Assembly (NCBI GenBank): GCA_025463765.1
Contig: JAODBC010000004.1
Coordinates: 62,001 to 126,000, forward strand
Length of the DNA stretch: 64,000 bases
DNA from: Subtercola sp.
GTDB lineage: Bacteria > Actinomycetota > Actinomycetes > Actinomycetales > Microbacteriaceae
Direction of reading: 5' to 3'
This document shows, piece by piece, positions 28,174-49,325 of the stretch. Below the pieces are notes generated by a model. It was not told where the DNA came from. It was given only the letters and a program-made list of their open reading frames with translations, and did not search any database. A program made the position numbers and the translations under genes. Positions within the stretch are counted from its first letter, which is position 1. Each line of letters begins with the position of its first letter.

Positions 28174-28255
28174 AAGCGCAACGGCTCAATGGGACCGAAA
28201 GTGAAAGCCGTTACCAGGTTCGTCCGCGAAACCGGGTGTCGCGCCCCTATCAAAG

Positions 28256-28269: not shown

Positions 28270-28296
28270 TGCCCGGCAGGCCGCGCGTCGGCCACC

Positions 28297-30810: not shown

Positions 30811-30916
30811 GATCTTGGCCCTGGAAGTCGCGTCCGGCCGCTGTACACTCTGACTACCGGGGTTGGTCGTGGGCAACGAACCGCGGTGTGAGTCAGCTAT
30901 CCGAGGCGGTACCTGC

Positions 30917-32617: not shown

Positions 32618-32619
32618 AC

Positions 32620-33258: not shown

Positions 33259-33281
33259 ATGGCAGTCTGCCGCCGAGTCGA

Positions 33282-33947: not shown

Positions 33948-34000
33948 AGGAATCACTCTCGGTCTCACGGTCGAACAGGAAATACGGTCTGCGCGCCCGG

Positions 34001-34222
34001 TCAGGCGTGCGGGATACCGGCGGTTAGTCCACCGTCGATAACGAACTCCGAGCCGGTCGAGTAGGCCGATTCGTCGCTGGCAAGAAAGAGCACAAGGCGA
34101 GATTTCATGGCGACGTAGGCGTGCAGCCCGGCGCCGCCGCGAAGCCCCTCGACTGAGGGGGTGTTGATGATCCCCCGGGCGTCGCCACTGATGAGGGCGA
34201 CTTTTCCTAGAACACGATCCAT
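34001..34222 (-). pseudogene. Short-chain dehydrogenase reduced to its two ends
   Basis: From ATG 34222 the frame gives an SDR start (DRVLGKVALISGDARGI) and jumps after 18 residues to the far end (an SVEGLRGGAGLHAYVAMKSR segment, then LVLFLASDESAYSTGSEFVI and DGGLTAGIPHA), typical of 3-alpha/20-beta-hydroxysteroid-dehydrogenase-like SDRs. Roughly 170 residues, including the catalytic Tyr, are absent. The glycine motif is also damaged. The fusion is in frame, but the product could not bind cofactor and catalyse. Confidence 0.75.
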
Positions 34223-34284
34223 GACTGACCCCCGGGTTTCTGGCGGCGCTACGCCGACGAACACCATGATGACAAAGTCGGGTG

Positions 34285-34319
34285 CTCAGATTACAGGGCC
34301 GTTGGTCCTGTCATCTGAG
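34285..34319. promoter_or_regulatory. Long inverted repeat with weak DosR-box similarity
   Basis: A 16-bp inverted repeat with two mismatches and a 3-base loop (34285-34300 / 34304-34319) lies between the two divergent pseudogenes. Its centre GGGCCGTTGGTCCT (34296-34309) resembles the DosR box weakly. It may be a surviving shared control site or a hairpin. Confidence 0.35.
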
Positions 34320-34405
34320 CTGCGCCCCGCAAGCCGGCCGTGCGGTGGCCTTCCAGGTGACCTTGTGCCCTACCCGTCAGTACCGAGTAAAGGGATGCTC
34401 AAGGC

Positions 34406-35144
34406 ATGACAAAGACACTGGAAAAGGTAGAAGCTCCCGGGTCAGACCATGACGTTTCGTCTGCACCACTACCGGCGCGGAGCACCCGAACTACTGCACG
34501 TCTTGTCGTCGGACTGTTCCAACGCCCACGGAGGTTCTGGTCGCTGTGCCTGCGTGCGGCGTCTGTCGAACAGACCTGCAGGTGATCGATGGCGAACTGC
34601 CGACTCATTGCGATCACGTGGTCCCCCGCCATCAGGTCGTCGGACGGGTGACCGCGATCGGCTCAGCCGTGCAGTCATTAACGCCGAACAGCTGAGCATT
34701 CCTGAAGCGTTCGCCTACCTGCTTCCAGCAGACACAGACCCGGTGAAGACCGCTCTCCTGCTCTGCGCCGGCGCCTCTTTCGTTGGCGACGCGGACTCGA
34801 AACCTCCGGTGCAACTGGATTCGGCGATCATTTTCGCCCCCGCCGGCGAAATAGTCAGCCAGGCTTTTGCCGCGACGACCCGCGGCGGAACCGTCGTCAT
34901 CGCGGGCATGCACCTGTCCGACATTCCGACGCTCAACTACGACAACAGCCTGTTCTATGAACGAGACCTTCGAACGGTGACCGCCAACACCCGCGCAGAC
35001 GGAATGGCATTCCTCCGAATCGCGCGCAACCTCGCGCTCTCTCCGCACGTCACCACGTACCCGTTCGAGTCCGTCGACGTGGCGCTTGACGATCTTCGAA
35101 GCGGCAGTGCGTCGGGGTCGCTCGTCATCACCGTCAGCGAGTGA
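34406..35144 (+). pseudogene. Zinc alcohol dehydrogenase (AdhA-like), fragmented
   Basis: Three frames carry parts of one gene. ATG 34406 opens a short frame; from 34531 another frame gives [20 protein letters not shown] and [15 protein letters not shown], the catalytic-zinc start of a medium-chain dehydrogenase; from about 34680 a third gives the C-terminal half (IIFAPAGEIVSQAFAATTRG, MHLSDIPTLNYDNSLFYERD, TVTANTRADG) to 35144. The middle, with structural zinc and much of the Rossmann fold, is missing. The intact homologues I know are AdhA-type dehydrogenases, often near aldehyde dehydrogenase genes, as here. Confidence 0.75.
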
Positions 35145-35166
35145 GACCGGCCCCTTCAGAACTGAG

Positions 35167-35192
35167 TCCGGCTCGCCCGCAGGCGAGCCGGA
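35167..35192. terminator. Perfect 11-bp hairpin between convergent genes
   Basis: TCCGGCTCGCC and GGCGAGCCGGA (loop CGCA) form a perfect stem between the alcohol dehydrogenase pseudogene and the aldehyde dehydrogenase stop codon, so it can serve both directions. Confidence 0.65.
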
Positions 35193-35202
35193 TCGGTCAA
35201 CG

Positions 35203-36798
35203 TCAGACGAAGAAGCCGAGCGGCTCGGGATCGTGGTTGTCGAGTACGTTCTTGACCTCCTGGTAGTTGCGGAGGGTCTGCTGGTCGGTCTCGCGGCCAT
35301 ACCCTGACTGCTTGTACCCGCCGAAGCCCGCTCCGGCCGGGTACTGGTGGTAGGTGTTGACCCAGACACGACCGGCCCGGATGTCCTGGCTGGCCTTGAA
35401 GGTGATGTCAGTGTCTCGGCTCCACACGCCTGAGCCGAGCCCGTATATGGTGTCGTTGGCGATCGTGATCGCGTCATCGTAGTCAGCGAACGGGGCCACC
35501 GTGACGACGGGGCCGAAGATCTCCTCTTGGAAGACGCGCATGTCGTTCGAGCCCTGGAAGACGGTCGGCTCGATGAAGTAGCCGCCCGCGAGGTCACCGC
35601 CGAGTTCTGCCCGGGCACCGCCAGCGAGTACTTTGCAGCCCTCCTGCGGCCCGAGAGTGAGGTAGTCGGAGATCTTCTCGAGCTGGTCGGCGCTGTTCTG
35701 AGGCCCCATCTCGGTTTCGGTGTCGAGCGGGTCGCCGACCTTGATTCTCTTCACGCGGGAGACGGCGTCGTCGAGGAACCCGTTTGTCATCAGGTCTTCT
35801 TGAAGTAACGCGCGCGACGGGCAGGAGCAGATCTCGCCCTTGTTGAGCGCGAACATCGTGAATCCCTCGATGGCTTTGCGGTAGTAGTCGTCGTGTTCCC
35901 GGGCGACGTCGTCGAAGAACAGGTTCGGCGACTTCCCGCCGAGCTCCATGGTCGACGGAATGATGTTCTTGATCGCGTACTGCATGATCTGCCGGCCCGT
36001 CGCGGTCGACCCGGTGAACGCGACCTTACCGACGCCTTCGTGTTCGACGAGGTGCTGACCCAGCGTCGAACCACTGCCGTTCACGACATTGATGGTGCCC
36101 GGCGGCAGCAGATCCTGAATCAACTCCATCACGTACAAGATCGAGATCGGTGTCGCGCTGGCAGGCTTCAGCACGACAGTGTTGCCGGCGGCCAGCGCGG
36201 GGGCGAGTTTCCACGCGGCCATCAGAATGGGAAAGTTCCACGGGATGATCTGGGCGACGACACCGATCGGCTCATAGAAGTGGTACGAGACGAGGTTGTT
36301 CGAGAGCTTCTTGATCGTTCCTTCCTGCGTGCGAATGGCCGCGGCGAAGTACCGGAAGTGATCGATCGCCAGCGGGATGTCGGCGGCGAGGGTCTCTCGT
36401 ACAGGTTTGCCGTTCTCCCACGACTCCATCACGGCGATGTCTTCCAGGTGCTGCTCGAGCCGGTCGGCGATAGCGTTCAGAACCGCTGCCCGCTCGGCCG
36501 TCGTCGTCACCGACCAGGTGCTGAAGGCACGCTGTGCAGACCAGACAGCGAGATCGACGTCAGCGAGACCCGAATGCGCATACTCGGCGATGGGCAACCC
36601 GGTCGCAGGGGCCAGATCTTCGGCGTACTCGCCGTTGATCGGCTTGACCCAGTCACCGCCGATGAAGTTGTCGTACCTGCTCTTCAGCGGCACGATGCTT
36701 CCTGCGCTACCGGGTCGGGTGTACACCGTGCCTACCTTGCCGAGCGGTCGGGGGTCGGCCTCAGTGCCGCTGATGTTCGGTTCTGCCAGGAGTGTCAT
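35203..36798 (-). CDS. Aldehyde dehydrogenase (AldB/ExaC type)
   Basis: This 531-residue NAD(P)-dependent enzyme oxidises aldehydes to acids. The nucleophile is Cys324 in [12 protein letters not shown], the general base Glu285 in MELGGKSPN, the oxyanion Asn in IIPWNFP, and the cofactor motif is FTGSTATGR (about 261-269). The N-terminal 40 residues are longer than usual. It lies 58 bp after pntB on the same strand, so it may be the last gene of the transhydrogenase operon and, through the divergent box at 39848, under DevR. It would pair with the alcohol dehydrogenase at 39931 in fermentative or ethanol metabolism. Confidence 0.92.
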
Positions 36799-36856
36799 TG
36801 CTCTCTTCTTTCTTCAGGGTTCGGGTGCAGCGGTCGCCGGAGTGGCGGCGGCACGA

Positions 36857-38275
36857 TCAGGTGGTGACGTATTGCTTCACGGAGAGGGTGATGTCGCCGA
36901 GCGCCTTTTTGGCGTCGTCGAACAGCATTCCGGTCTGCGGCAGCGAGAACAGTTCGTTCGGGATGCCGGCGTAGCCGGGACTCATGGATCGTTTGACGAC
37001 GACGACCGATTTGGCGTGGTCGACGTCGAGAATGGGCATGCCCGAGACGGCGTTACCGGGGCGACGGGCGGCCGGGTTGGTGACGTCGTTCGCGCCCACG
37101 ACCAACGCCACGTCGCAGGTGTCGAAAGCCGGGTTGGCCTCTTCGAGTTGCAGCATTTGGGTGTACGGCACGTTCGCCTCGGCGAGCAGGACATTCATGT
37201 GTCCGGGCATCCGGCCTGCCACCGGGTGGATGGCGTATTTCACGTCAATGCCGTGATCGGTGAGCAGCTTCGCGAGCTCGGCGACCTCATGCTGGGCTTG
37301 GGATGCCGCGAGACCGTAGCCCGGCACGATGATCACGTGGCGGGCGTACGCCAGCTGCAACCCGACGTCATCGGCCGTCACTTCGCGAACGTTGGCGGTG
37401 GTAGAGGTGCCAGGCGTGACCTCGGCACCGTCGCCGGTTCCGAAGCCGCCGAGCATGATGGTGAGCACCGAGCGATTCATCGCCTTGGCCATCTGCAGGG
37501 TGAGAATCGTGCCCGCAGCACCCACCAGCGCGCCGGCGATAATCATCGCCTGATTGTCGATCACGAAGCCGGCCATCGCAACAGCGAGCCCGGTGAAAGC
37601 ATTCAGCAGTGAGACCACGACCGGGGCATCCGCCCCGCCAATCGGAAGCACCATGAGTACGCCGAACAGTACCGATGCGATGAGCACGACGAGAAGCAGC
37701 GGCCACGACGCGGGCAGAAGTATGGTGGCCGCCCCGGCACCGAGTGCGATGAGCACCACGACGACGTTCAGCACGCGGGCGCCTGGGAATTGGATCGGCT
37801 GGCCAGGAATGACGCCTTGCAGTTTGCCAGCTGCGATGAGAGAGCCGGAGAGGCTCACCGAGCCGATGATGACGTCGAGCACGACCGGAACACTGGTGGT
37901 CGGGGTGAGTCCGGCCGATACGTCTCGGCTGAGGAAGTCGGCGAACGCTATCGCCGCGGCGGCCCCGCCGCCCACGGCGTTGAATAGGCTGACGAGCTGC
38001 GGAATGTCAGTCATCTTCACCGACCGGGAGCGCACGATGCCGAACCCTCCGCCGAGGATCACGCCCGCCGCTAAGGCAATCCAGCCGAGCGGGTGGGAGT
38101 TAGAGAGGGCGATGGCGTAGACCAGCGTCGCACCGACAGCGATGATCATGCCGCCGGCCGAGATGAGGTTGCCGCGGCGAGCAGTTCTGGGGGTCCTCAT
38201 CTGATGCAGACCGACCACAAAGAACACGGCTGCTGCCAGGTAAAACACTCCCACGATGAATGCGAACGGAGTCAT
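36857..38275 (-). CDS. pntB: NAD(P) transhydrogenase beta subunit
   Basis: This 472-residue membrane protein has about eight or nine helices over the first 270 residues, then the NADP-binding domain III (VIIVPGYGLAASQAQHEVAEL near 300-320, ALVVGANDVTNPAA and RSMSPGYAGIPNELF). It couples proton movement to hydride transfer between NADH and NADP+. ATG 38275 overlaps the stop of pntAB. With the separate PntAA and PntAB chains it forms the three-subunit transhydrogenase found in many actinobacteria. Confidence 0.95.
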   Translation of the reverse strand: MTPFAFIVGVFYLAAAVFFVVGLHQMRTPRTARRGNLISAGGMIIAVGATLVYAIALSNSHPLGWIALAAGVILGGGFGIVRSRSVKMTDIPQLVSLFNAVGGGAAAAIAFADFLSRDVSAGLTPTTSVPVVLDVIIGSVSLSGSLIAAGKLQGVIPGQPIQFPGARVLNVVVVLIALGAGAATILLPASWPLLLVVLIASVLFGVLMVLPIGGADAPVVVSLLNAFTGLAVAMAGFVIDNQAMIIAGALVGAAGTILTLQMAKAMNRSVLTIMLGGFGTGDGAEVTPGTSTTANVREVTADDVGLQLAYARHVIIVPGYGLAASQAQHEVAELAKLLTDHGIDVKYAIHPVAGRMPGHMNVLLAEANVPYTQMLQLEEANPAFDTCDVALVVGANDVTNPAARRPGNAVSGMPILDVDHAKSVVVVKRSMSPGYAGIPNELFSLPQTGMLFDDAKKALGDITLSVKQYVTT

Positions 38276-38613
38276 GAGCTCTTCCCTGGCTTGATCGCTG
38301 CCGGTACCGATGCGGTCAAAGATGGTGGTGCCGCAGCGGGCGTGAACATGCGCAGCATGCGGTCGGTGACGACGTACCCGCCGAAAACGTTGGCAGAAGC
38401 GAACAGTGCCGCGATAAAGGTCAGGATGTACCCGGCGGGAGTGTTCGCTGCTGCGGCAATGGCGATCGCCCCGGCGATTACCACACCATGGATGGCATTC
38501 GCGCCCGACATCATCGGGGTGTGCAGGGTCGAAGGGATCTTACTGATCACCTCGAACCCGACAAGCAGGCTGAGCACGAAGATGGCCAGGTTGCTGAACA
38601 GTGTCTCGGTCAT
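38272..38613 (-). CDS. pntAB: NAD(P) transhydrogenase alpha subunit, membrane part
   Basis: This 113-residue membrane subunit has three to four helices, with FEVISKIPSTLHTPMMSGANAIHGVV in the middle and FGGYVVTDRMLRMF near the end, both standard for PntAB. ATG 38613 overlaps the PntAA stop; the longer open frame upstream only shadows pntAA. A Pro/Ala-rich tail follows the last helix. It forms domain II of the proton-translocating transhydrogenase with PntB. Confidence 0.93.
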   Translation of the reverse strand: MTETLFSNLAIFVLSLLVGFEVISKIPSTLHTPMMSGANAIHGVVIAGAIAIAAAANTPAGYILTFIAALFASANVFGGYVVTDRMLRMFTPAAAPPSLTASVPAAIKPGKSS

Positions 38614-39770
38614 GCGTTCACGCTCTCTGCGAGTTGACGGGCCTGAAGTTGGGCATTGACGATCTTGCCGTCGTGACAGACCAGCACGGCGGCATGAATG
38701 TCGCTGGCGAGATCGACCTGTAACTGGTTGTCGGTGACGAAGGAGTCGAGCAGTGCCTGGATGTTGCGGGCGTACATCGCCGAGGCAGAGGTCGGCAACT
38801 CGGCAGCCAGATCGCCGGCGCCGATGACACACACTCCGCCGGCGGTCGTCACCGTTTCTCGATCGACCGACCCGTAGACGTTGCCGCCGAGATCGCTCGC
38901 CGCCAGGTCGATGCATACCGAGCCTGATTTCAGCGCTGCGAGGGTGTCTGCCGACACCAGTAGCGGCGGTGTGCGGCCGGGCACTTTAGCTGTCGTGATG
39001 ATGATGTCGAACGCCACCAGCTCCGCGGCCAGTTCCGACTGCTGTTCCACTTGCTCCTCGGGCGAAAGCGCCCTCGCGTAACCCCCGGCTGCGGCGCCTT
39101 CGGCGATGCTCGAGGTGAGAAACCGGGCTCCGAGAGACTCGACCTCACCCCGAGAAGCCGGTCTGACGTCGTAGCCGGTCACGACGGCGCCAAGGCGCTT
39201 AGCGGTGCCGATCGCCTGCAGGCCGGCGACGCCGGTGCCGATGACGATCACGTTCGCCGGCCGGGCCGTGCCCGACGCGGTGATCATCATCGGCAGATAC
39301 CGGGCGAAGCTATCGGCGGCCACGATAGCCGCTTTGTACCCGGCCGCGCTCGCTTGAGAGCTGAGTGCATCCATCGATTGCGCACGACTCAGCGTTCGCG
39401 GCAGCAGTTCGAACGCGGCCACCGTGACGCGGGCCCCGGTGAGCGCTGCGACCAGTGCAGGGTCATTCAGAGGGTCGAGTAGACCGAGCAGAAGCTGGCC
39501 GGCGCGCAGCCGGGCGACGGTGTCGGCATCGGGTGCGTGAACAACGGCGAGCACATCGCACCGATCAATGATCTCGGTGCGCGAGGCGAGAGAGGCGCCG
39601 GCTTGCTGGTACGCGCTGTCGGGAAAGCGAGCCTCTGCCCCGGCACCGGATTCGATCAGCACGTCGTGATCCGCCTTCGTGAGCCGGGTGACCGTCTCAG
39701 GGTCGAGAGCGACCCGCCGTTCGCCGGCTGCTGTCTCTTTCAGAACGCCGATCGTAAGGTTCTTCGTCAT
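38610..39770 (-). CDS. pntAA: NAD(P) transhydrogenase alpha subunit, NAD-binding part
   Basis: This 386-residue soluble domain I starts IGVLKETAAGERRVALDPETV (shared with alanine dehydrogenase), has the SMDALSSQA segment and the NAD motif VIVIGTGVAGLQAIGTAKRLG near 173-193, and IIITTAKVPGRTPPLLV. It binds NAD(H) and hands hydride to PntB. It heads the pntAA-pntAB-pntB(-aldehyde dehydrogenase) operon; its start is 160 bp from the divergent adhP gene, and two DosR-box-like sites lie between. Hypoxic control of NADPH/NADH balance is the inferred role. Confidence 0.95.
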   Translation of the reverse strand: MTKNLTIGVLKETAAGERRVALDPETVTRLTKADHDVLIESGAGAEARFPDSAYQQAGASLASRTEIIDRCDVLAVVHAPDADTVARLRAGQLLLGLLDPLNDPALVAALTGARVTVAAFELLPRTLSRAQSMDALSSQASAAGYKAAIVAADSFARYLPMMITASGTARPANVIVIGTGVAGLQAIGTAKRLGAVVTGYDVRPASRGEVESLGARFLTSSIAEGAAAGGYARALSPEEQVEQQSELAAELVAFDIIITTAKVPGRTPPLLVSADTLAALKSGSVCIDLAASDLGGNVYGSVDRETVTTAGGVCVIGAGDLAAELPTSASAMYARNIQALLDSFVTDNQLQVDLASDIHAAVLVCHDGKIVNAQLQARQLAESVNA

Positions 39771-39806
39771 ACCACTGAGATTGCGCCTGCCTGATAGCCC
39801 GAACCA

Positions 39807-39861
39807 GTGCCGAAGGTCCTGTGTAAGTGTCGGCGCCTGCGCCGAGAGGGACTTTTGGCAC
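39807..39861. promoter_or_regulatory. Two DosR-box-like sites between pntAA and adhP
   Basis: GGGACTTTTGGCAC (39848-39861) matches the DosR consensus GGGACTTTnGnCCC at 11 of 12 fixed positions. A weaker second copy, AGGACCTTCGGCAC on the minus strand, lies at 39807-39820. The strong box is 69 bp before adhP and 77 bp before pntAA, so one site may drive both directions. Confidence 0.65.
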
Positions 39862-39930
39862 TAGTCCGTCTGCGGTGGTGCCGCGAAGCTGATCGTGTAC
39901 CTAGCCGCGTGCCATCAGAAAGGTTCCATC

Positions 39931-40941
39931 ATGAAAGCCGCCGTCGTCACAGAATTCAATGCTCCCCTCGAGATCGAGGAACTCGACATTCCAACACCTG
40001 GGGTGGGCGAAGTGCTGATCCGGTTGGAGACCTGTGGGCTGTGCCACACCGACATCCACGCTGCACACGGCGACTGGCCGGTCAAACCCACCCTCCCGTT
40101 CATTCCCGGCCACGAAGGTGTGGGCATCGTCGAAGCGCTCGGCGCGAACGTCACTACCCGAACGATCGGCGAGAGAGTCGCCATTCCGTGGCTCGGGTTC
40201 GCATGCGGCGAGTGTCGGTACTGCATCGACGGGCGTGAGACGCTCTGCGAACAGCAGCAGAACAGCGGCTACTCCGTCAACGGTGCATTCGCGGAGTACG
40301 CCGTCGCCAGCGCCCGGTTCGTGATCCCGGTACCCGACGGCATCAGCGCTCTGGATGCTGCGCCTCTCACCTGCGCCGGCGTGACCACCTACAAGGCCCT
40401 GAAAGTGGCCAATATCATGCCCACAGAGAATGTCGCCGTCTTCGGCATCGGTGGCCTCGGCCACCTCGCCGTGCAGTACGCCCGCATCATGGGCGGAACA
40501 GTGATCGGCGTCGATATCGAAGACGAGAAACTCGCTCTCGCGAGCGAGCTGGGTGCCGCGTTCACGGTGAACGCCGCGAAGGTCGACCCTGTCGAAACGA
40601 TCGCAGGGTTCGGCGGCGCTGACGTCGCTGTGGTGCTGGCCGCGTCACCGAGAGTGTTCGAGCAGGCTTTCGCCTCGCTCAAGCGCGGCGGGCGGCTGAT
40701 CTGCGTCGCACTTCCAGCGGAAGGCACGATGAGCATCCCCATTTTCGAGACCGTGCTGAAAGGCATCTCGATCATCGGCTCGATCGTCGGCACCCGGCAA
40801 GACGTTGCCGAAGTCTTCGCCCTGCATCTCGCGGGGAGAACAAAGGTGATCGCCGAGACGCGCACGCTCGAGCAGGTCAACGCCGCCATGGCTGAAGTGC
40901 TCTCCAGCACGGTGCCGGCCCGGCTCGTCTTCCAGTTCTAA
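39931..40941 (+). CDS. adhP: Zinc-dependent alcohol dehydrogenase AdhP
   Basis: This 336-residue medium-chain dehydrogenase matches AdhP in length and motifs. The catalytic zinc is held by Cys35 (CGLCH), His61 (GHEG) and Cys148 (TCAG); the structural zinc by Cys92, Cys95, Cys98 and Cys106; the NAD site is VAVFGIGGLGHLAVQYAR near 168-185. It interconverts primary alcohols and aldehydes. ATG 39931 follows AGAAAGG. It leads a rightward run (PNPOx-like protein, SDR) behind a strong DosR-like box and should work with the nearby aldehyde dehydrogenase and transhydrogenase to balance reductant. Confidence 0.93.
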   Translation: MKAAVVTEFNAPLEIEELDIPTPGVGEVLIRLETCGLCHTDIHAAHGDWPVKPTLPFIPGHEGVGIVEALGANVTTRTIGERVAIPWLGFACGECRYCIDGRETLCEQQQNSGYSVNGAFAEYAVASARFVIPVPDGISALDAAPLTCAGVTTYKALKVANIMPTENVAVFGIGGLGHLAVQYARIMGGTVIGVDIEDEKLALASELGAAFTVNAAKVDPVETIAGFGGADVAVVLAASPRVFEQAFASLKRGGRLICVALPAEGTMSIPIFETVLKGISIIGSIVGTRQDVAEVFALHLAGRTKVIAETRTLEQVNAAMAEVLSSTVPARLVFQF

Positions 40942-40972
40942 GAACGACGCGCACAAAGAAAAGGGATACGAA

Positions 40973-41431
40973 ATGGTCATGATTACAGAAGACCTCGATG
41001 AGTGGTCTCCACAGGGTCCCGTCACTGAACTCTCTGTTGAGCATTGCTGGAAGCTGCTTGACGGTTCGACGTTCGGGCACCTGGGAGTGAGCGTCGACAA
41101 CCAGCCAGAGATATTTCCCGTCAACTACGTCGCCGACGGCAGATCCATCGTCTTCAGAACAGCCAGAGGCACAAAACTCCGAGACCTGATCGCCAATAGC
41201 TCTGTCGTTTTCGAGGCAGACGCGCAACTGGAAAACGGTGCGTGGAGCGTGACGGTGAAAGGCATTGCCGAGGTGCTCGGCGCTGATGCGCCAGTAGCTA
41301 ATGAGGTTGATGTGATGCTGCCCCAATGGGTTCCCACCGCGGAATTCATCTACGTCCGCATCACTCCCACCGATATCCGGGGCCGCCAATTCGAGCGGCA
41401 GCTTCGCCTCGTTATCCGCCCAGCCGCCTAG
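40973..41431 (+). CDS. PNPOx-fold flavin-binding protein
   Basis: This 152-residue small beta-barrel protein is of the pyridoxamine 5'-phosphate oxidase-like family (LDGSTFGHLGVSVDNQPEIFPVNYVAD near 29-55, then IVFRTARGTKLRDLI). Such proteins bind FMN or F420 and include several DosR-regulon members in mycobacteria. It follows adhP by 31 bp and is probably in the same transcript. Substrate or redox role unknown; a flavin or F420 reductase or sequestering function is possible. Confidence 0.85.
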   Translation: MVMITEDLDEWSPQGPVTELSVEHCWKLLDGSTFGHLGVSVDNQPEIFPVNYVADGRSIVFRTARGTKLRDLIANSSVVFEADAQLENGAWSVTVKGIAEVLGADAPVANEVDVMLPQWVPTAEFIYVRITPTDIRGRQFERQLRLVIRPAA

Positions 41432-41494
41432 CTCTGTTCCGCCGATTTCTCCAAACCACTCCAGACCCTATTGCGAAAGACAGGAAGATTTCTC

Positions 41495-42250
41495 ATGGCC
41501 ACATATGATGTTGCAGCACGGTCCGCTATTGTCACGGGAGGCGGCTCGGGTATCGGCCGGGCAGTTGCTCTGCTGCTGGCCGCGAACGGCGCCGACGTAC
41601 TCGTTACCGACGTCAATCACGAAGGTGTCGCAGCTGTCGTGGATGAAATCGTTGCCGCCGGGGGTACCGCCTCGATGCTGGTCGGAGACGTCACCGACCC
41701 CGAGTTCGCCAAAGCCAGCGTCGACGCAGCGAACGCCCTGGCGCCGCTGCGCATAGCGGTGAACAACGCAGGCATTGGCGGCGAGTCGGCAACCATCGGC
41801 GATTACCCGCTCGAGAGTTGGCGCCGAGTGATCGAGATCAACCTCAACGCCGTGTTTTACGGGCTGAAGTACCAGCTGCCGGCGATCGGCGCGCATGGGG
41901 GCGGCTCTGTCGTGAACATGGCATCGATCCTAGGCTCTGTCGGCTTCGCCACATCGTCGGCGTACGTCACCGCCAAGCACGGACTGCTCGGCCTCACGCA
42001 GAACGCAGCACTCGAGTACGCCGACCAGAAGGTGCGCGTCACCGCCGTCGGTCCAGGTTTCATCCACACCCCGCTCATCGACGCGAACCTCGACACAGCC
42101 ACGCAAGACTTTCTTGTCACCAAGCATCCTCTTGGCCGGCTTGGCGAGCCGACCGAGGTCGCTGCGCTGGTCGCTTTCCTCGCCTCAGACGCGGCATCTT
42201 TCATCACGGGCAGCTACCACCTGATCGACGGCGGCTACATCGCCCAGTAA
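41495..42250 (+). CDS. Short-chain dehydrogenase/reductase
   Basis: This 251-residue classical SDR has the cofactor motif TGGGSGIGRA near residues 14-23, NNAG, the catalytic Ser (NMASILGS) and YVTAK for Tyr-Lys, and ends ITGSYHLIDGGYIAQ. Complete length and all motifs indicate an active NAD(P)-dependent oxidoreductase. ATG 41495 follows CAGGAAG; the upstream in-frame start lacks conserved sequence. It is 63 bp after the PNPOx-like gene and likely the last gene of the adhP transcript. It contrasts with the ruined SDR at 34001. Confidence 0.9.
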   Translation: MATYDVAARSAIVTGGGSGIGRAVALLLAANGADVLVTDVNHEGVAAVVDEIVAAGGTASMLVGDVTDPEFAKASVDAANALAPLRIAVNNAGIGGESATIGDYPLESWRRVIEINLNAVFYGLKYQLPAIGAHGGGSVVNMASILGSVGFATSSAYVTAKHGLLGLTQNAALEYADQKVRVTAVGPGFIHTPLIDANLDTATQDFLVTKHPLGRLGEPTEVAALVAFLASDAASFITGSYHLIDGGYIAQ

Positions 42251-42254
42251 CAAG

Positions 42255-42734
42255 CTACGCCAGCAACACGGCATCCTTGCTGCCCCTGACGCGGGTGCCG
42301 TTCATCCATTGGTGAGATGAAACATTGACTTTGACCGGCCACCGCAGCTCGACGAAGATCCACACCATCATCCCGAACCCGCCGACTGCACACCACAAAA
42401 GGCTCTGTGCCCGCATTGTTTGAAGCGAGACCGCGCCTGCGAGTTGTGTGCCGCCGACGATGATGCCAAGGATCAAACCTGGGATGAGGTAGGAGCCGAA
42501 CGGGGTATCGGCGAGATAGCCGACAGGGGCCGCGCCACCGTTCGCGAACACGCCCAGGCATCCTCCCGCAAATGAAGACACCGCACCGAAATACAACAGC
42601 CCCAGAAGAACCCGACGAGTCACAAGCGACCGGCGAATGAGCCGCGAGTTCGGTCGCCCGGTGCACAGGTGCTGCGGAATCGCTGCAGGAGTTGGACTCG
42701 GCAGTGGTGCAGAATTTTGCTCGGTCTGGCTCAT
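42255..42734 (-). CDS. Small membrane protein next to a double DosR-like site
   Basis: This 159-residue protein has a polar N-terminus (about 50 residues) followed by hydrophobic segments LLGLLYFGAVSSFAGGCLGVFA, YLIPGLILGIIVGGTQLAGAV and LLWCAVGGFGMMVWIFVEL, so three membrane helices. I do not recognise the family. ATG 42734 is chosen because the open frame above it is only shadow sequence. A near-consensus DosR box ends 34 bp before the start, so it is a likely regulon member. It converges on the SDR gene with a 4-bp gap. Confidence 0.65.
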   Translation of the reverse strand: MSQTEQNSAPLPSPTPAAIPQHLCTGRPNSRLIRRSLVTRRVLLGLLYFGAVSSFAGGCLGVFANGGAAPVGYLADTPFGSYLIPGLILGIIVGGTQLAGAVSLQTMRAQSLLWCAVGGFGMMVWIFVELRWPVKVNVSSHQWMNGTRVRGSKDAVLLA

Positions 42735-42768
42735 CTGCCCACTCTTCCCGAGTCGACCTCCATCGGGC

Positions 42769-42815
42769 AGGCCGAAAGTCCCGATCGTTCCGGGCCAACT
42801 GGTGACCAAAGACCC
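42769..42815. promoter_or_regulatory. Pair of DosR-box-like sites between membrane protein and usp
   Basis: On the minus strand GGGACTTTCGGCCT (42782-42769) matches 11 of 12 fixed consensus positions, and GGGTCTTTGGTCAC (42815-42802) matches 10. Starts of the two boxes are 33 bp apart, about three helical turns, as in tandem DosR promoters. They lie between divergent genes starting at 42734 and 42851. Confidence 0.65.
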
Positions 42816-42850
42816 TGTTTGTCGGCCGCGCGCGGTGGAAGCATCGAGGC

Positions 42851-43441
42851 ATGAACAACACACTGCACGCATCCTCGGCCAGGTTCGAGGCCGCCTCGGC
42901 CGCCTCGAACGACAGCCGTATTGTCGATTTCGGGGTCGACGGCACCGGCGTTGCCGTGGCCGAGTACGACCATTCAACCGCCACCACCACTGAGCCCGGC
43001 ATCCCTGCGGTTCGGCCGCGCACTACCCGAATCGTTGTCGGCCTCGACGGGTCGGAGGCCTCGCTCGATGCTTTCCGCCGAGCGGTGCGCATCGCCGACG
43101 GGCTGAATGCCACCGTGCAAACCGTGGTCGCCTGGCATAACCCCACCAGCGTCGGCACCGCCGGCTACAGCGACTGGACGGCGAAGGCTGACGCCGAGGA
43201 TATTCTCGCATCGGCATCCGAAACGCTTTTCGGCGACAACCCGCCAGAATGGCTGAACGAAACCGTACGCGAGGGCTACCCCGCCCAGGTTCTCATCGAA
43301 GAGAGCAAGGGCGCTGAGATGCTCGTCGTTGGCAGCCGTGGTCACGGTGGTTTCGCCGGGCTGCTGCTCGGGTCGGTGAGCACCGCGTGTGCTGAGCATG
43401 CGCACTGCCCGGTCCTCGTCATGCACACCCCGAGCCGATGA
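42851..43441 (+). CDS. Universal stress protein (single UspA domain)
   Basis: This 196-residue protein has an unusual 58-residue N-terminal extension followed by one UspA domain: TRIVVGLDGSEASLDAFRRAV near 59-79 and the ATP-binding loop LVVGSRGHGGFAGLLLGSVS near 158-177, which is complete (G-2x-G-9x-G-S). ATP binding is therefore likely. It overlaps the next small gene (ATGA) and has two DosR-like boxes upstream. The role is inferred as a hypoxia/stasis protein. Confidence 0.9.
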   Translation: MNNTLHASSARFEAASAASNDSRIVDFGVDGTGVAVAEYDHSTATTTEPGIPAVRPRTTRIVVGLDGSEASLDAFRRAVRIADGLNATVQTVVAWHNPTSVGTAGYSDWTAKADAEDILASASETLFGDNPPEWLNETVREGYPAQVLIEESKGAEMLVVGSRGHGGFAGLLLGSVSTACAEHAHCPVLVMHTPSR

Positions 43442-43782
43442 CAACCGGGGCTGACGGGCAGCTGGCGACGCTGATCTATGGCAATGACAGCACCGTCACC
43501 GCGTTCGACGCACGTGCGCTTTTGCACTTACAACTCGTGATCGGCGCGAAGTTGCGCCGCAAAGAGAGCTTCTTCCTCTCGTGGACCCAGAAAGACGTTC
43601 TCGGCCGCCCGAGCACCTCACTCTGGTTGGACTGCGCGATCCCGCTGCAATTCGACTACCCCCACGGCCGACCAGAATCTGTCAACCGGGCCTGGATCGA
43701 CGCTTTGACCAAATCAGCGAACGGCGGCTCCGGACTCTTCCTCGTCGAAGAACCTGCGAGCGATCTGGCGCGCAGCTCGTAA
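43438..43782 (+). CDS. Small protein of the Microbacteriaceae DUF7882-like type
   Basis: This 114-residue protein has LATLIYGNDSTVTAFDARALLHLQLVIGAKLRR followed by ESFFLSWTQ and SLWLDCAIPLQFDY. I recognise this as the short protein common in Microbacteriaceae that older annotations wrongly label ATP-dependent DNA ligase; it has no ligase motif. Function unknown. Its start overlaps the Usp stop, so it is translated with a DevR-type stress gene, which is the only clue to role. Confidence 0.75.
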   Translation: MTTGADGQLATLIYGNDSTVTAFDARALLHLQLVIGAKLRRKESFFLSWTQKDVLGRPSTSLWLDCAIPLQFDYPHGRPESVNRAWIDALTKSANGGSGLFLVEEPASDLARSS

Positions 43783-43797
43783 CGCAGCCGACGACAG

Positions 43798-43829
43798 AGA
43801 AAGGGCCGCTCAGCACGGTCCCTCTTTCT
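43798..43829. terminator. Hairpin between convergent genes
   Basis: AGAAAGGGCCG (43798-43808) can pair with CGGTCCCTCTTTCT (43816-43829) with a 3-base bulge. Read rightward it ends in TTTCT, read leftward in TTTCT as well, so it can end both the usp operon and the exporter operon. Confidence 0.55.
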
Positions 43830-43847
43830 GACGTAGCCTTCGCGTGG

Positions 43848-44567
43848 TCAGACCGCCTCGAGCGTGAGGGGCTGCACGGGCGAGTCGTGGCGAGTCGCGA
43901 CGCCGTCCACCATGACGTAATAGGTGTCGAAGCGCTGCAACTGCAGTTCGTCGTGGGTCACCAAGACCGTCGCCGTGTTCTGCTCTGCCGTCAGCCGGGT
44001 GATGAGGTTCAGGATGCTCGTTCCCCTCGCCTGGTCGAGAGAACTCGTAGGTTCATCGATCACCAGCACCGTCGGCCGGTTCATCAGAGCACGGGCGATG
44101 TTGACGCGCTGCCGCTCCCCGCCCGAGAGCATCGCGGGAAACTTGTGTGCCTGCGCCTCCACACCCACCGACGCCAATAGGTCCAGGGCACGCGAGCGGC
44201 CGTCGCCCCGAGCATCCGTTCTGCGCGTGCGAGCACCGAGCCTTTCCATAACGAGCAGTTGCTCGATGGCTGTCAGTGCGGGCAGCAGGTTCGACTGCTG
44301 AAAGACGATTCCGAGGTGATCTCGGCGCAACTGGGCACGCTGTTTCAGCGAGAGCGTCGTCACGTCGACGTCGTCGATCAGCACAGACCCTGAGTCGGGC
44401 CGGATGAGCGTGGAGATCACTGCGAGCAGGCTCGACTTGCCCGAACCCGATGGCCCCGTGATTCCGACCACGCTCCCCCGGTCGACGTCGAGCGTCACAT
44501 CGTCGACGGCAACGACCCTGCTGGCGCCGTCGGGGTAGGTCAGGGTGACGTTCGAGAGGGCGATCAT
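43848..44567 (-). CDS. ABC exporter ATPase (MacB/LolD type)
   Basis: This 239-residue ATPase has Walker A GPSGSGKSS near residues 40-48, Q-loop IVFQQSNLLPAL, signature MLSGGERQRVNIARALMNRP, Walker B VLVIDEPTSSLD and H-loop LVTHDE. Sequence type and the FtsX-like partner place it in the MacB/LolD/DevA class, which uses mechanical force to extrude lipoproteins, peptides or lipids rather than import. ATGA overlap with the permease gene. A perfect DosR-like box precedes the operon. Confidence 0.9.
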   Translation of the reverse strand: MIALSNVTLTYPDGASRVVAVDDVTLDVDRGSVVGITGPSGSGKSSLLAVISTLIRPDSGSVLIDDVDVTTLSLKQRAQLRRDHLGIVFQQSNLLPALTAIEQLLVMERLGARTRRTDARGDGRSRALDLLASVGVEAQAHKFPAMLSGGERQRVNIARALMNRPTVLVIDEPTSSLDQARGTSILNLITRLTAEQNTATVLVTHDELQLQRFDTYYVMVDGVATRHDSPVQPLTLEAV

Positions 44568-45634
44568 CGGTTACTTCCCAGAGCGGTCAGAGGGTCGGCG
44601 TGGGTCACCGAACGAAGGGCAAAGGCTGCGCCGAGAAGCCCGAGCGCGATCATCGCGACGGCCGGGGCGAGCGTGGTGTACCAGGCGAGGATGAACGGCA
44701 GAACCCCGCCCACGGCCAGTCCGAACAGGGCAGTGGCTCCGATGCCCACGCCGACTCCCACGACGAGCACGAGGGCGGCCTGTCCGAGCGAGTCGAACAC
44801 GAGCATCCGGTTCGATGCACCCAGTGCTTTCAGAATCGCGACATCGGGCTGCCGTTGCATGCCCCATACCGTGAAGAAGGCGCCGACGACCAAGGCTGAG
44901 ATGCCGAACAGCATCGCGACCATCAGCAGGAGCGAGCCGATCTCTGAGCGAAAGGCGGCGAGAGCCGTCAACGAACCAAACAGGCTCTGCGAGCTAGTGT
45001 GCGCTGCCTGATCTGCCGCGGCGAAGCTCGAATCGGCGCCGTCGACGGCGAGAACGGTCGCGAATGCTCCGGGGGTGCCCGTTGCCGCGGCGATACTGTG
45101 CCAGTCGGCCAACGAGACCCAGGCCACGGCCGTGTGCGAATACCAGCTATCAGCCGTGACCGCGTCGACGATGTAGTCGGCACTGCCGAGCGTCACGGTT
45201 TCTCCTGCCACGGCGTGTAGGGCCGATGCGGCCGTCGCCGGCAGGGTGATGTGGCCGGCCTCGGCTGGCACCGCTTTATCGAAGGAGGTGTCAGCACCGA
45301 AGACCGCGACCGCGGCCTGCCTCGAACCGGAATAGATCTTCACTTGGCTGATGCCGAGCGGGTGCACAGCGCTTACCCCGGCTGCTTTCGACCAGGTGGC
45401 GGCTTGCTCCGCCGTGATCGTCGAATCGGAGTAGCTCAGGCTATTGCCGTCGGCGGGAGCGGAGAATACGACCCTGTCAGCGGGTAGCGCCAGTACGGCC
45501 GAGATGTTCTGGTTGGCGAGGCCCGCGGTCAGCCCCGCGAGAAACCCGACCAGCACCGTGATGAGTGCTACGACGGCGGCAATGAGCACAAATCGGCCCT
45601 TCGCGAACCTCAGATCACGCAGTGCAACGTACAT
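44564..45634 (-). CDS. ABC exporter permease, FtsX/DevC type
   Basis: This 356-residue permease has one N-terminal helix (FVLIAAVVALITVLVGFLAGLTAG, about 15-38), an extracytoplasmic domain of some 190 residues and three C-terminal helices from about 235, including MVAMLFGISALVVGAFFTVWGM and the cytoplasmic motif DVAILKALGASNRML. This is the FtsX/MacB_PCD topology. The gene heads a two-gene operon with the ATPase. GGGACTTTCGGCCC on the minus strand lies 88 bp before its start, so expression under hypoxia or NO is predicted. The cargo is unknown. Confidence 0.88.
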   Translation of the reverse strand: MYVALRDLRFAKGRFVLIAAVVALITVLVGFLAGLTAGLANQNISAVLALPADRVVFSAPADGNSLSYSDSTITAEQAATWSKAAGVSAVHPLGISQVKIYSGSRQAAVAVFGADTSFDKAVPAEAGHITLPATAASALHAVAGETVTLGSADYIVDAVTADSWYSHTAVAWVSLADWHSIAAATGTPGAFATVLAVDGADSSFAAADQAAHTSSQSLFGSLTALAAFRSEIGSLLLMVAMLFGISALVVGAFFTVWGMQRQPDVAILKALGASNRMLVFDSLGQAALVLVVGVGVGIGATALFGLAVGGVLPFILAWYTTLAPAVAMIALGLLGAAFALRSVTHADPLTALGSNR

Positions 45635-46034
45635 TCGAACCGGCCTTCACTGACGAGCCTCTGCACAACCCGGGCGTCGGTATCGTGTGCGTTCAGCATC
45701 TCGCATGGCTCTCGTCGCTGGTGGGCCGAAAGTCCCAAGGCCGCAATATGGTGCGCCAGAGGTTCCCTCGCCGTGGAACGAGGCTGCGGGTGACCTCACG
45801 GCTGAAGAAGTCGGCTCACGACGCGATGTGAGTGCCGGCTGAGACCAAGGCCAGAATCGACAGAATAGGCGGCCTCATCGTATTAGCTGCGTCGCCGGTG
45901 AGGCAGAGATCTCCCTGGGCGCGGTTCTCGTCAGCGAGTGAGACCCAGAGCCCCAATGCGTTCGTCGCGGATGCACGCCGCCAATGCCTTGCTCGCGAGA
46001 AACGCCTCGGTCGCTCCTGTGCACCGCGGGCGAG
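45635..46034. other. 400-bp non-coding stretch with one DosR-like site
   Basis: No convincing gene. It holds the DosR-like box at 45723-45736, and the rest is GC-rich sequence without a ribosome-binding site or conserved protein. The 5' side serves the exporter operon; the other side lies after the aldolase stop codon. Confidence 0.6.
45723..45736 (-). promoter_or_regulatory. DosR-box-like site before the MacB-type exporter
   Basis: The minus strand reads GGGACTTTCGGCCC, which fits GGGACTTTnGnCCC at every fixed position, the best match in the window. It ends 88 bp before the permease start codon. Confidence 0.65.
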
Positions 46035-46886
46035 TCAACGCGCAAAGCCGGTGGCGGGCGCGGGCTGCCGAGTGTAGCGCGTCGACCCGGCGACAGCGGT
46101 CGTGGCCGCGGCGACGGCCTGCTCGCAGATTTTGCGGAACGCCATCACGTCGAGGCCAAGGCACAGCACGCCGATGTCTTCTTCCAGGGCGGTTGCGCAC
46201 GCCTCGGCGGTCGGGTCGATGATCGGCCCGCCCAGCAGCACCACCCCATGGGCACGGGCCGCCGCCTTGACCCGAACCAGGGCATCCTGAATCGCGGCGC
46301 TGCCGTGCAGGCTCGCGTTCGCCCCCTCGCCGAGAGCGTACGACAGCTCGCCGGCGGCGAAGACGATCACGCGCACCTGTTCGAGCGCGCAGATCTCCTC
46401 GATGTTCGTCAGCGCATCGACCGTCTCGATCATCGGAATCAGAAACAGTCCGGCATCGCTGATCGCCGCATACTCGCTGAAGCTACTGAGCGCATACCCG
46501 GCCGCGCGGTACGCTGGGCAGATGCCGCGCCTACCGTTCGGCGGGTACGTCAGCGCATCGACCATGTTCGTCACATCGGCGGCCGTGCGCACCATCGGAA
46601 TCACGATCGCCTCAGCGCCGGCCTCGAGGGCGCGCCGTGCAGACGTCGTATCGTCGGGCTCCGGCACCCGCACGATGGTTGCGAGCCCTACACCGTCGGC
46701 AGTACGAACGGTGTCTTCGAGCGCACGAGGGTTCAGCCCGCTGTGCTCGCTATCGATCCAGACGTAGTCGAGCCCGGTACGACCCATCACCTCGATGAGC
46801 GTGTGGTCGCCCGTGAAGCACTGCATTCCGATCGGCACCTCATGATTGTCGATCATGGCCATGAGTCGTTGGGGCATAGCGAACAT
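46035..46886 (-). CDS. HpcH/HpaI-family aldolase/citrate lyase
   Basis: This 283-residue TIM-barrel protein is a class II pyruvate-type aldolase. TGLDYVWIDSEHS near 37-49, the metal-site Glu/Asp pattern around FLIPMIETVDALTN, and a Gly-rich stretch near GANASLHGSAAIQD follow the family, which cleaves 2-keto-3-deoxy or 4-hydroxy-2-oxo acids to pyruvate and an aldehyde. ATG 46886 has AAAGGAG upstream. It is the last gene of a leftward cluster with a VOC protein and an aromatic-acid transporter. The final product step of a ring-cleavage or sugar-acid route is inferred. Confidence 0.85.
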   Translation of the reverse strand: MFAMPQRLMAMIDNHEVPIGMQCFTGDHTLIEVMGRTGLDYVWIDSEHSGLNPRALEDTVRTADGVGLATIVRVPEPDDTTSARRALEAGAEAIVIPMVRTAADVTNMVDALTYPPNGRRGICPAYRAAGYALSSFSEYAAISDAGLFLIPMIETVDALTNIEEICALEQVRVIVFAAGELSYALGEGANASLHGSAAIQDALVRVKAAARAHGVVLLGGPIIDPTAEACATALEEDIGVLCLGLDVMAFRKICEQAVAAATTAVAGSTRYTRQPAPATGFAR

Positions 46887-46938
46887 TGAAGGCTCCTTTG
46901 AGGGTGAACGGATGATCGGGGCGCAGTGCGACCGAAGC

Positions 46939-47385
46939 TCAGTGATCGACGTGCTGCTCTTGGAAGGGCACCGCGGCGAATCCCCCGGCGGGCGCGGTGA
47001 ACAGCCGGATCACGACGCCATCGGGGGTCGTGATCTCGAGCGAGCGACCCGTACGGCGTTGTTTCACCGGCGAGTGCTCTGCACCCAGTGCTTCGACGTG
47101 CTGAAACCAGGCCTCGAGCGCGTCATCGTCGGCAACCTCGAACGTGACGGGGTCGTAGCCGACCGGTACCGCATACTGCGGGGTCGCGAGCCTCAATTCG
47201 AGCATCCCCGCGAACGCGGGTAGAGCGAGTATGACGCCGAACAGCGCCCCCGATGCGTCATGATGGTCGAATCGAGGCTCGTGGCGGGCACCCAAGACGC
47301 TCTCGAACCAGTCGATTCCCGACTCGAGCGAGCTGACTACGAAGGTCAGGTGGTGCAGCCCGCTGACAGCTGGCCGATCAGGCAT
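46939..47385 (-). CDS. VOC-superfamily (glyoxalase/dioxygenase) protein
   Basis: This 148-residue protein has two beta-alpha-beta-beta-beta modules. GLHHLTFVVSSLESGIDWF (His near 12), a metal-type Glu in MLELRLATPQ and the C-terminal GRSLEITTPDGVVIRLF suggest an active metal site, as in glyoxalases and extradiol dioxygenases. It overlaps the transporter gene by 8 bp and precedes the aldolase, so it probably catalyses a ring-cleaving or isomerising step in this pathway. Confidence 0.8.
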   Translation of the reverse strand: MPDRPAVSGLHHLTFVVSSLESGIDWFESVLGARHEPRFDHHDASGALFGVILALPAFAGMLELRLATPQYAVPVGYDPVTFEVADDDALEAWFQHVEALGAEHSPVKQRRTGRSLEITTPDGVVIRLFTAPAGGFAAVPFQEQHVDH

Positions 47386-48760
47386 GCGCCACCGCGACGG
47401 CCGGCACAGTCGCGACTCGGCGACGGCGCAACACCACCAGGCCCATCACGAGCATCGCCAGCGCGGCCAGCACCGAGACGACTCCGATCACGACGAAGAC
47501 GACAGGGGTGGCCACTCCGGCGGCGAGAAGCACACCGCCGATGACCGGGCCGAGAATGGCGCCCAGGCGGGCGATGCCCATTGCCGAACCGACACCCGTC
47601 GCGCGCAGCGCATCGCTGTAGAACGTTGCGCAGAGGCCGACAGTGCAGAGTTGGGCGCCGATGGCGAAGAACCCGGCGAGAAACGTCGTCACGAGCAGAC
47701 CCGGCGCTGAGTGCGCCGCCTGACCGATGGCGACGATAGCTATCGCACCGAGCAGGTACCCCGCCACGATCGTCGTGGTCGGTCTTGCACGAACGAAGCG
47801 GCCGAGAACGATACTGCCGACGATCGACCCGAGGTTGAGCATCACGGCGCCGAGAATGCCGGTGCGAACATCCAGGCCGTTCTGCACGGCGATGATCGGA
47901 ATCCAGTTGGTCAGGAAGTAGGTCATCAGCAGGCTGAGCAGCAGAATCACCCAGAGCACGAGCGTGCCGACCGCGCGACCCTGCGTAAAGAGGCTCGGCA
48001 GCGGGGCCCTCGACTCGGCCGCCGCAGGCTCGATGGTCGCGGCGAGGTCTTCTGGCAGGCGCAGGCGCTTCAGCACCCGGGCGAGCGCACTCTTGTCGCT
48101 GCGCATCGACAGGAATCGCACCGACTCGGGGATGGCGAACACGATGATGGGAATGAGGATGACCGGCACAAGACCGCCGAGCCAGAACACGCTCGCCCAG
48201 CCGGAGGCGGGGATGAGAACCGTCGAGAGAAGACCGCCGACGACGGCCCCGAGCGGAAACCCGCAGAACATGAGCGCGACGGTGGCTGCACGACGGCGAA
48301 CCGGCGCATACTCCGACGTCAGCGATATGACGCTCGGCAAAGCCCCGCCCAGCCCGAGGCCGGTAATGAACCGCACGATGAAAAGAGTGGTCGTCGAGTC
48401 GGTGAACGGGGTCGCAAGCGAGCCGATGGCGACGATCGCGACGGAGATCAGCAGTGCAGGCTTGCGACCGAACCGGTCGCCCACGAGACCAAAGACGATG
48501 GCGCCGACCAGGCCGCCGAAGAGGCCGATGCCGAAGATCGGGCCGAAGTCGGCGACATTCGAACCGAACTGTTGCGCGATCGGGGTGGCCGCGAGCGCGA
48601 TGACCTGGGTGTCGAAACCGTCGACCATGGCGATGACGGCGCAGACCCCGATGATGAGAATCTGAAAACGGCCGATCGAACGGCCTTCGAGCAGTGAGTC
48701 GAAACTTCGAGTGATTCGCGAGCCTATGGCCGTGGTGTATTCAGAACCGGTGCTGCTCAT
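47378..48760 (-). CDS. MFS transporter, aromatic acid:H+ symporter (AAHS) type
   Basis: This 460-residue permease has about 12 hydrophobic helices. The AAHS signatures are visible: AMVDGFDTQVIALAATPI in helix 1 and the loop GDRFGRKPALLISV between helices 2 and 3, both used by 4-hydroxybenzoate and related carriers. ATG 48760 has AAGGAGG. It leads the VOC-aldolase operon, so the imported substrate is probably an aromatic or related carboxylate. A CCTAG-centred palindrome lies about 70 bp upstream. Confidence 0.9.
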   Translation of the reverse strand: MSSTGSEYTTAIGSRITRSFDSLLEGRSIGRFQILIIGVCAVIAMVDGFDTQVIALAATPIAQQFGSNVADFGPIFGIGLFGGLVGAIVFGLVGDRFGRKPALLISVAIVAIGSLATPFTDSTTTLFIVRFITGLGLGGALPSVISLTSEYAPVRRRAATVALMFCGFPLGAVVGGLLSTVLIPASGWASVFWLGGLVPVILIPIIVFAIPESVRFLSMRSDKSALARVLKRLRLPEDLAATIEPAAAESRAPLPSLFTQGRAVGTLVLWVILLLSLLMTYFLTNWIPIIAVQNGLDVRTGILGAVMLNLGSIVGSIVLGRFVRARPTTTIVAGYLLGAIAIVAIGQAAHSAPGLLVTTFLAGFFAIGAQLCTVGLCATFYSDALRATGVGSAMGIARLGAILGPVIGGVLLAAGVATPVVFVVIGVVSVLAALAMLVMGLVVLRRRRVATVPAVAVAHA

Positions 48761-48822
48761 GGATCCTCCTTGATGCAGGGCAGTGACATCGTCGACGACG
48801 GTGTCACGCTCAAGAATAGTAT

Positions 48823-48839
48823 TAATTGTCCTAGTGTCA
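48823..48839. promoter_or_regulatory. Candidate GntR operator before the MFS gene
   Basis: The segment begins ATTG and ends CAAT around CCTAG (48830-48834), an imperfect palindrome. CCTAG in related context recurs (minus strand) at 49370-49366 before the HbpS gene and 50715-50711 before the cupin gene, flanking the GntR regulator. A shared operator is inferred. Confidence 0.35.
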
Positions 48840-48896
48840 ATGTCTCTTGGTGAATTAGAGACCGAAGCGGGTTGCACCAGTGGTGGCCACGATCTG

Positions 48897-49325
48897 TCAC
48901 TCGCCGGGGTCAGCCGTGAGACCAGCCGCGATGATGCCCGCCAGCCCACATGCTTCGTCGGCATCGGGCAGAGCGCCACTTACTCCGACGGCGCCCACGA
49001 TGGCTCCTATTTCGTCGCGTACCAGCACACCTCCGGCCACGGGAACCAGCTCGCCGTCGGCAAGCGCGATGATCGAGGAGAAGAACTGCGGATGAGCGTC
49101 GGCACGACCGGCAAGGGCGCGACTTCCGACGCCCATGTTCAAAGCTCCCATCGCCTTTGCCCGAGCGATCTTCTCCCGCAGCAGGCTGGAGCCGTCTTCA
49201 CGCGCGAAAGCAACCAGCTGACCTCCGGCGTCGAGCACTGCCACGGTCATCGGTGGCAACGAGCCGCTTCGAGCGTGGTCGAGGGCGGTGTGAACAACGG
49301 TTTGGGCGAGATCGAGCGTGAGCAA
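48897..49325 (-). CDS. GlcG/HbpS-family protein
   Basis: This 142-residue protein has the HbpS/GlcG pattern: AVLDAGGQLVAFAREDGSSLL near 29-49, KAMGALNMGVGSRAL, and VPVAGGVLVRDEIGAIVGAVGVSGALPDADE near 93-122. Members bind heme or cobalamin or occur as accessory subunits in glycolate and aromatic catabolic operons. A TTG start at 49325 seems required. It lies between the transporter and the divergent GntR regulator. Confidence 0.83.
   Translation of the reverse strand: MLTLDLAQTVVHTALDHARSGSLPPMTVAVLDAGGQLVAFAREDGSSLLREKIARAKAMGALNMGVGSRALAGRADAHPQFFSSIIALADGELVPVAGGVLVRDEIGAIVGAVGVSGALPDADEACGLAGIIAAGLTADPGE

Follow-up and report, generated by a model that had tools for sequence, protein, structure and literature searches.

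The window analysed here, a stretch of 64,000 nucleotides of Subtercola sp. DNA, contains on its minus strand a two-gene exporter, comprising (i) an HrtB-like heme exporter permease of the FtsX family (44564–45634; 356 amino acids) and (ii) an HrtA-like ATPase (43848–44567; 239 amino acids), whose gene overlaps that of the permease by 4 bases. Ahead of the permease gene, a motif scan of the window located a DevR/DosR-type box, GGGACTTTCGGCCC, at 45723–45736 on the minus strand, which shows 0 mismatches to the pattern GGGACTTTNGNCCC and spans −102 to −89 relative to the permease ATG, with 88 bases in between. A preliminary description of this DNA had reported both a site that fits a DosR-like pattern at all fixed positions and its placement before a two-gene FtsX-type exporter, and our analysis confirmed the two statements. 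Apart from a 301-aa plus-strand ORF (45984), which runs antisense to an aldolase gene (46035–46886), the other ORFs that overlap 45635–46034 encode 94 aa or fewer, and the end of the aldolase gene faces the box. The exporter is likely the sole user of the box among the genes around 45635–46034.

Searched against solved structures with phmmer, the permease matched C. diphtheriae HrtB across residues 1–354 (7w78_B, E 3.2e-65), with all other matches at E 0.44 or worse, and the identity to this closest solved relative is ~40%. In a Foldseek search with a permease model of middling quality (pLDDT 73.9, pTM 0.57), HrtBA chains, titled "Heme exporter," occupied ranks 1 to 4 (best E 2.7e-27), as compared with 2.5e-15 for LolCDE and 8.1e-14 for MacB. 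Glu231 of the permease aligns with Glu219 of C. diphtheriae HrtB, which a review gives as the axial heme ligand (PMC11442138), and a glutamate occupies this position in all 50 aligned homologues. The ATPase matched the HrtA chain 7w7a_A at E 3.9e-45 and an ATPase of another system better, at E 4e-50; other ABC ATPases match it about as well as HrtA or better. None of the NCBIfam models matched the permease, and the matches of the ATPase to the NCBIfam LolD and DevA models were far under their cut-offs. MacB combines ATPase and permease in one chain and works with a MacA-type partner; a membrane-fusion partner of this type was not found among the neighbouring proteins scanned, from 30863 to 48979. 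The MacB/DevC class, to which the preliminary description had assigned the exporter, was not borne out and was set aside, since HrtB is far the stronger match in both the sequence and the fold searches. Judged by kinship, the exporter is of the HrtBA type, and its substrate is most likely heme.

Two adjacent plus-strand genes, 12–15 kb from the box, encode a DevS/DosT-like sensor kinase (30863–32617), with GAF, HisKA_3, and HATPase domains, and a DevR/DosR-like response regulator (32620–33258). Among solved structures, the kinase matched the GAF-A domains of DosT (E 1e-43) and DevS (E 4.7e-40), and the regulator aligns with M. tuberculosis DevR across residues 1–208 (E 1.3e-69), with Asp54 and the EKTVKNYVS stretch (from residue 178) kept. 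The gas sensors DosS and DosT have a proximal heme histidine (His149 and His147, respectively) and a distal tyrosine (Tyr171 and Tyr169, respectively) (PMC4082495). In the window kinase, where the heme-pocket residues were located from the alignment and from the intervals between the DosT residue numbers (85, 147, 169), the proximal histidine (His157) and the distal tyrosine (Tyr179) are kept, and Gly95 stands where DosS has Glu87, as in DosT. Taken together, the heme-pocket residues and the kinship of DevR indicate that the window encodes a DevRS pair built like a gas sensor.

These two genes belong to a DosR-type cluster. A gene for a universal stress protein with two Usp stretches (29855–30718, minus strand) adjoins devS, and the remainder of the cluster includes an aldehyde dehydrogenase and a three-gene NAD(P) transhydrogenase (35203–39770, minus strand; order unchanged in S. 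boreus), an AdhP-like alcohol dehydrogenase (39931–40941, plus strand), another universal stress protein (42851–43441, plus strand), a PPOX protein, an SDR, and a DUF7882 protein. Further boxes are found here as well. A second box with one mismatch, GGGACTTTTGGCAC (39848–39861, plus strand), is located at −83 to −70 relative to the probable AdhP start codon (ATG, 39931), and a third, GGGACTTTCGGCCT (42769–42782, minus strand), also with one mismatch, precedes the universal stress protein gene at 42851. A weaker fourth box with two mismatches (42802–42815, minus strand) begins 33 bases past the third, at −49 to −36 relative to the start codon (ATG, 42851), and by itself means little, as the window holds nine sites with ≤2 mismatches against 5.4 expected. 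In S. boreus, a DUF7882 gene (L070:6554–6953) has a one-mismatch box ∼85 bases ahead of its match, while the window DUF7882 gene comes after that of the universal stress protein; DUF7882 may be part of the DevR regulon. A nitroreductase-like protein with a weak Pfam match, encoded at 28189–29505 in the window, remains close to the cluster in S. boreus and is encoded close to the exporter in S. vilae.

The exporter box is the one perfect GGGACTTTNGNCCC match in the window's assembly (4,318,105 bases in 118 contigs, 88.4% complete). Under an order-1 Markov model fitted to the window sequence, 0.006 perfect sites are expected by chance in the window and 0.42 in the genome, so that a single perfect site somewhere in the genome is unremarkable; it is the location of this one that is remarkable. 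Across the genome, sites with ≤1 mismatch number eight, versus 15 for a reversed-pattern control, and three of these eight cluster inside 5.9 kb of the window. Two of the other five are the arms of a terminator-like hairpin on contig C27 (66935–66978; L129:4936–4979), where two box-like sites face each other. This double site was rejected as a DevR target, being an inverted repeat between convergent ORFs (−33.2 kcal/mol, z −6.0), and it calls for caution in motif scans here. An Rfam search of the window returned one tRNA and nothing else.

Among 12 genomes of the genus, orthologues of the permease occur in S. vilae (85%), in S. boreus (83%, copy a), and in a further genome, G006 (74% over residues 2–307); S. 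boreus also has a second copy, b (60%). The S. vilae exporter is preceded at −100 by a perfect box, and S. boreus copy a, likewise at −100, by a box with one mismatch, GGGACCTTCGGCCC, so that a box with an intact exporter is found in three of the 12 genomes. The S. vilae and S. boreus genomes encode a DevS as well. There is no box ahead of copy b, and G006 has only two sites before its exporter, each with two mismatches. Each of the 167 14-mers in the 180 bases ahead of the window ATG was compared with the S. vilae and S. boreus copy a sequences at offsets up to 5 bases from its own; the box was the best conserved (27 of 28 letters across both comparisons, versus a median of 14), and the best block besides it was the ribosome-site region (23 of 28). 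Most other upstream DNA of the exporter has diverged across the three Subtercola species, and the genes upstream differ as well, being an aldolase gene in the window, tRNA-Val and an AhpC/TSA gene in S. vilae, and a GAF-domain gene in S. boreus. The last of these (L120:8943–9722), located directly upstream of the box copy on the same strand, combines a weak GAF match with a LuxR-like C-terminal end. The G006 exporter (L072:17795–19273) has its permease, up to about residue 307, fused in frame into the ATPase at the Walker A region and is probably a broken pump. A tree built from 50 permeases unites the three box copies in a single clade (100/96), which is joined by G006 (99/96) and next by Cryobacterium (81/92); copy b of S. 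boreus (L128, C3:232000–246000) falls together with a genome of another genus (98/93), a placement suggestive of transfer. We found no −10 element common to all cluster promoters. The hexamer (C/G)AT(C/G)(C/G)T, which is present 22 bases downstream of the box in the three exporter promoters, was dropped as a shared element because it is missing from the AdhP and stress-protein promoters.

Exporter loci other than the box copies were assembled in two overlapping sets, each made up of the best-scoring loci of its search rather than of a random draw. The first comprises 46 loci (one Cryobacterium, four Plantibacter, two Dietzia, S. boreus copy b, and 38 further genomes of the family), and the second comprises 56 (28 from the family and 28 from the order). 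A box with ≤2 mismatches was absent within 400 bases ahead of the exporter in all 46 loci of the first set, and none of the 56 in the second had a box before the exporter. In 43 of the 46, a ChrS-like kinase and a NarL-type regulator are encoded upstream, divergent from the exporter; the loci without such a pair are L156, L166, and L167, of which the last two have permeases that are just 34–36% identical, and at L163 the pair is 1.6 kb from the exporter. In the second set, a divergent kinase is present at 55 loci (the exception is L198), and a repeat of the scan without the Dietzia ORF query and with direction checked again gave 55 of 56. In the kinase, four to six hydrophobic segments precede the HisKA_3 and HATPase domains; ChrS has six transmembrane helices (PMC11442138). 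Corynebacterial hrtBA operons respond to heme via the heme-sensing ChrSA (PMC11442138, PMC7337898), and the divergent hrtBA operon is given as the sole known target of C. glutamicum ChrA (PMC7337898). We call the pairs ChrSA-like on account of their domains, hydrophobic segments, and divergent position, and presumably they sense heme. The preliminary description had proposed a search for the same box before orthologous exporters in related genomes, with its absence counting against the idea; the box is present in S. vilae and S. boreus and absent outside the Subtercola box clade. As nearly all of the box-less loci carry a divergent ChrSA-like pair instead, we read the absence as a lineage-specific change of regulator.

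No ChrSA-like pair is found beside the exporter in the window, in S. vilae, or at S. boreus copy a. Within the genus, S. boreus alone has a close ChrS (51%), next to copy b, and thus carries the exporter once with a box and once with a ChrSA-like pair; other matches are at 33–35%. The S. vilae genome (100% complete) has no ChrS match, and the window's assembly has a weak partial one (35% over residues 145–393). The absence of ChrS is weak evidence in the window's assembly, since the latter is 88.4% complete, and stronger evidence in S. vilae. Further, DevS and the exporter occur together in 16 genomes of the family outside the genus; the upstream regions of 14 of these were examined, and none contained a box, whereas 13 had the kinase, showing that the presence of DevR alone does not bring the box.

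Across 299 genomes of the Microbacteriaceae, the perfect box occurs at 107 sites in 70 genomes, and DevS, called at E ≤ 1e-60, occurs in 95. Perfect boxes are present in 51 of the 95 genomes with DevS, versus 19 of the 204 without it (Fisher p 3e-16, with genomes counted as independent despite their kinship). Moreover, a DevS gene is found no more than 20 kb away from 34 of the 107 perfect sites, and six of these 34 lie 76–150 bases ahead of the DevS match start. Chance sites do occur, as in the 19 box-bearing genomes without DevS and in G005, which has a perfect site and no DevS match. In Streptomyces, the OsdR consensus is AGGGCCGATCGGCCCT, and the OsdR site of SCO2347, a prediction of the same paper, is AGGGCCGAAAGTCCCG (PMC5069765); the other strand of the exporter box, GGGCCGAAAGTCCC, is contained letter for letter in this predicted site. 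Seven perfect boxes were counted in one genome of the family, G208 (L078, L079, L080), with four packed into 5 kb of contig C13; the exporter had no match in this genome at E ≤ 1e-30. G208 is well suited to defining the DevR regulon of the family.

We regard the box, with a probability of about 0.7, as a DevR-binding site that drives a two-gene HrtBA-type heme exporter. From the sequence we infer that DevR binds here, and that it acts as an activator rather than as a repressor. When oxygen is scarce, or NO or CO is present, the DevS GAF domain with its heme would exit its oxygen-bound off state, and DevS would phosphorylate DevR; phosphorylated DevR would then bind the exporter box and recruit polymerase, so that the pump would be made under hypoxia. 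HrtB would take up heme, its predicted substrate, from the membrane via the conserved glutamate, and HrtA would drive release to the outside. A likely purpose would be the disposal of surplus heme (perhaps porphyrin) once aerobic cytochromes are no longer built. The simplest account of the origin would be a single event in one Subtercola lineage, in which the exporter lost its ChrSA-like pair and came under DevR. We incline, by a little over even odds, to the broader view that DevRS took over a heme exporter from ChrSA in this lineage and that heme expulsion there may be anticipatory, set off by low oxygen or NO and not triggered by heme.

DevR might bind as proposed and the pump still carry something else, such as a porphyrin precursor, a lipid, an antibiotic, or a peptide. 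FtsX-type pumps have varied substrates, and ∼40% identity to the closest solved relative leaves room for one. We nevertheless consider another substrate rather unlikely, in view of (i) the conservation of the heme-ligand glutamate in all 50 homologues, (ii) the ChrSA-like neighbours at most other loci, and (iii) the porphyrin bound in the crystal of the solved relative, as given in the structure titles. A heme-type exporter that is still mainly heme-controlled by a regulator encoded elsewhere, with the DevR box as a minor second input, appears unlikely to a somewhat greater degree. Known hrtBA operons are indeed heme-responsive (PMC11442138, PMC7337898), and either the weak kinase match in the window's assembly or the S. 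boreus GAF-domain gene with a LuxR-like end could be looked to for such a regulator; set against this, S. vilae has no ChrS match and the window's assembly no close one, and the top upstream block besides the box is the ribosome-site region, at 23 of 28 letters.

We see a slim likelihood that the box has no function and matches by chance or as a relic, retained through shared ancestry. The expected 0.42 perfect sites per genome, the restriction to three genomes, and the lack of a genome-wide excess of sites with ≤1 mismatch (8 versus 15) would all fit such a match, but the box tops the upstream 14-mers in conservation where most of the surrounding DNA has diverged, and it is located in a DevRS cluster with further boxes. 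It is scarcely credible that the box acts in the transcript, within a hairpin or terminator, instead of serving as a protein site: the look-alike pair on contig C27 is such an element (z −6.0), but the window box has a promoter position and folds no better than shuffles (z 0.37), and a hairpin was set aside for this reason.

The DosR/DevR pathway is best known for the metabolic shift at low oxygen. If DevR control of the exporter is true, the dormancy pathway would have a new output in heme efflux, linking heme disposal to gas sensing by a heme-bearing kinase, and Subtercola would provide an environmental, non-mycobacterial model for the fate of heme once respiration stops. It would also represent the replacement of one NarL-family two-component system by another on the same operon, with the old pair gone and a new operator in its stead. 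The parts are of known kinds, and the combination of a heme exporter with a DevR box appears new. In the open-access full-text literature, with subscription papers mostly outside it, we found none linking DosR with a heme exporter, or hrtB and heme with a dormancy regulon. Nor did the open-access literature yield any paper joining DosR, an ABC transporter, and Microbacteriaceae; among the matches listed, there was no Subtercola with DosR/DevR and no HrtBA with hypoxia or DosR.

Compared with known systems, the exporter shares with MacB/DevC the broad FtsX permease superfamily, but it differs from MacB in its unfused ATPase, in having no membrane-fusion partner seen, and in a fold match much weaker than that to HrtB. 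With C. diphtheriae HrtBA (PDB 7w78–7w7d), it has in common the FtsX-type permease with a separate ATPase, a permease alignment from end to end, and the heme-ligand glutamate. The corynebacterial HrtBA exporters are ChrSA-controlled, by a pair divergent from hrtBA in C. glutamicum (PMC11442138, PMC7337898), whereas the window exporter has a DevR box and no ChrSA pair. Similarly, the ChrSA-HrtBA-like modules of the Microbacteriaceae and Dietzia contain an orthologous exporter (permease 33–67% identical), but are adjoined by a divergent membrane kinase and a NarL-type regulator and have no DevR box. The main text of the OsdR paper does not contain the term "ABC transporter" (PMC5069765). The window cluster resembles the mycobacterial DevRS/DosRST and Streptomyces OsdKR regulons in its DevS and DevR relatives, its box, and its universal stress protein, alcohol dehydrogenase, PPOX, and nitroreductase-like genes; in addition, it contains a heme-type exporter.
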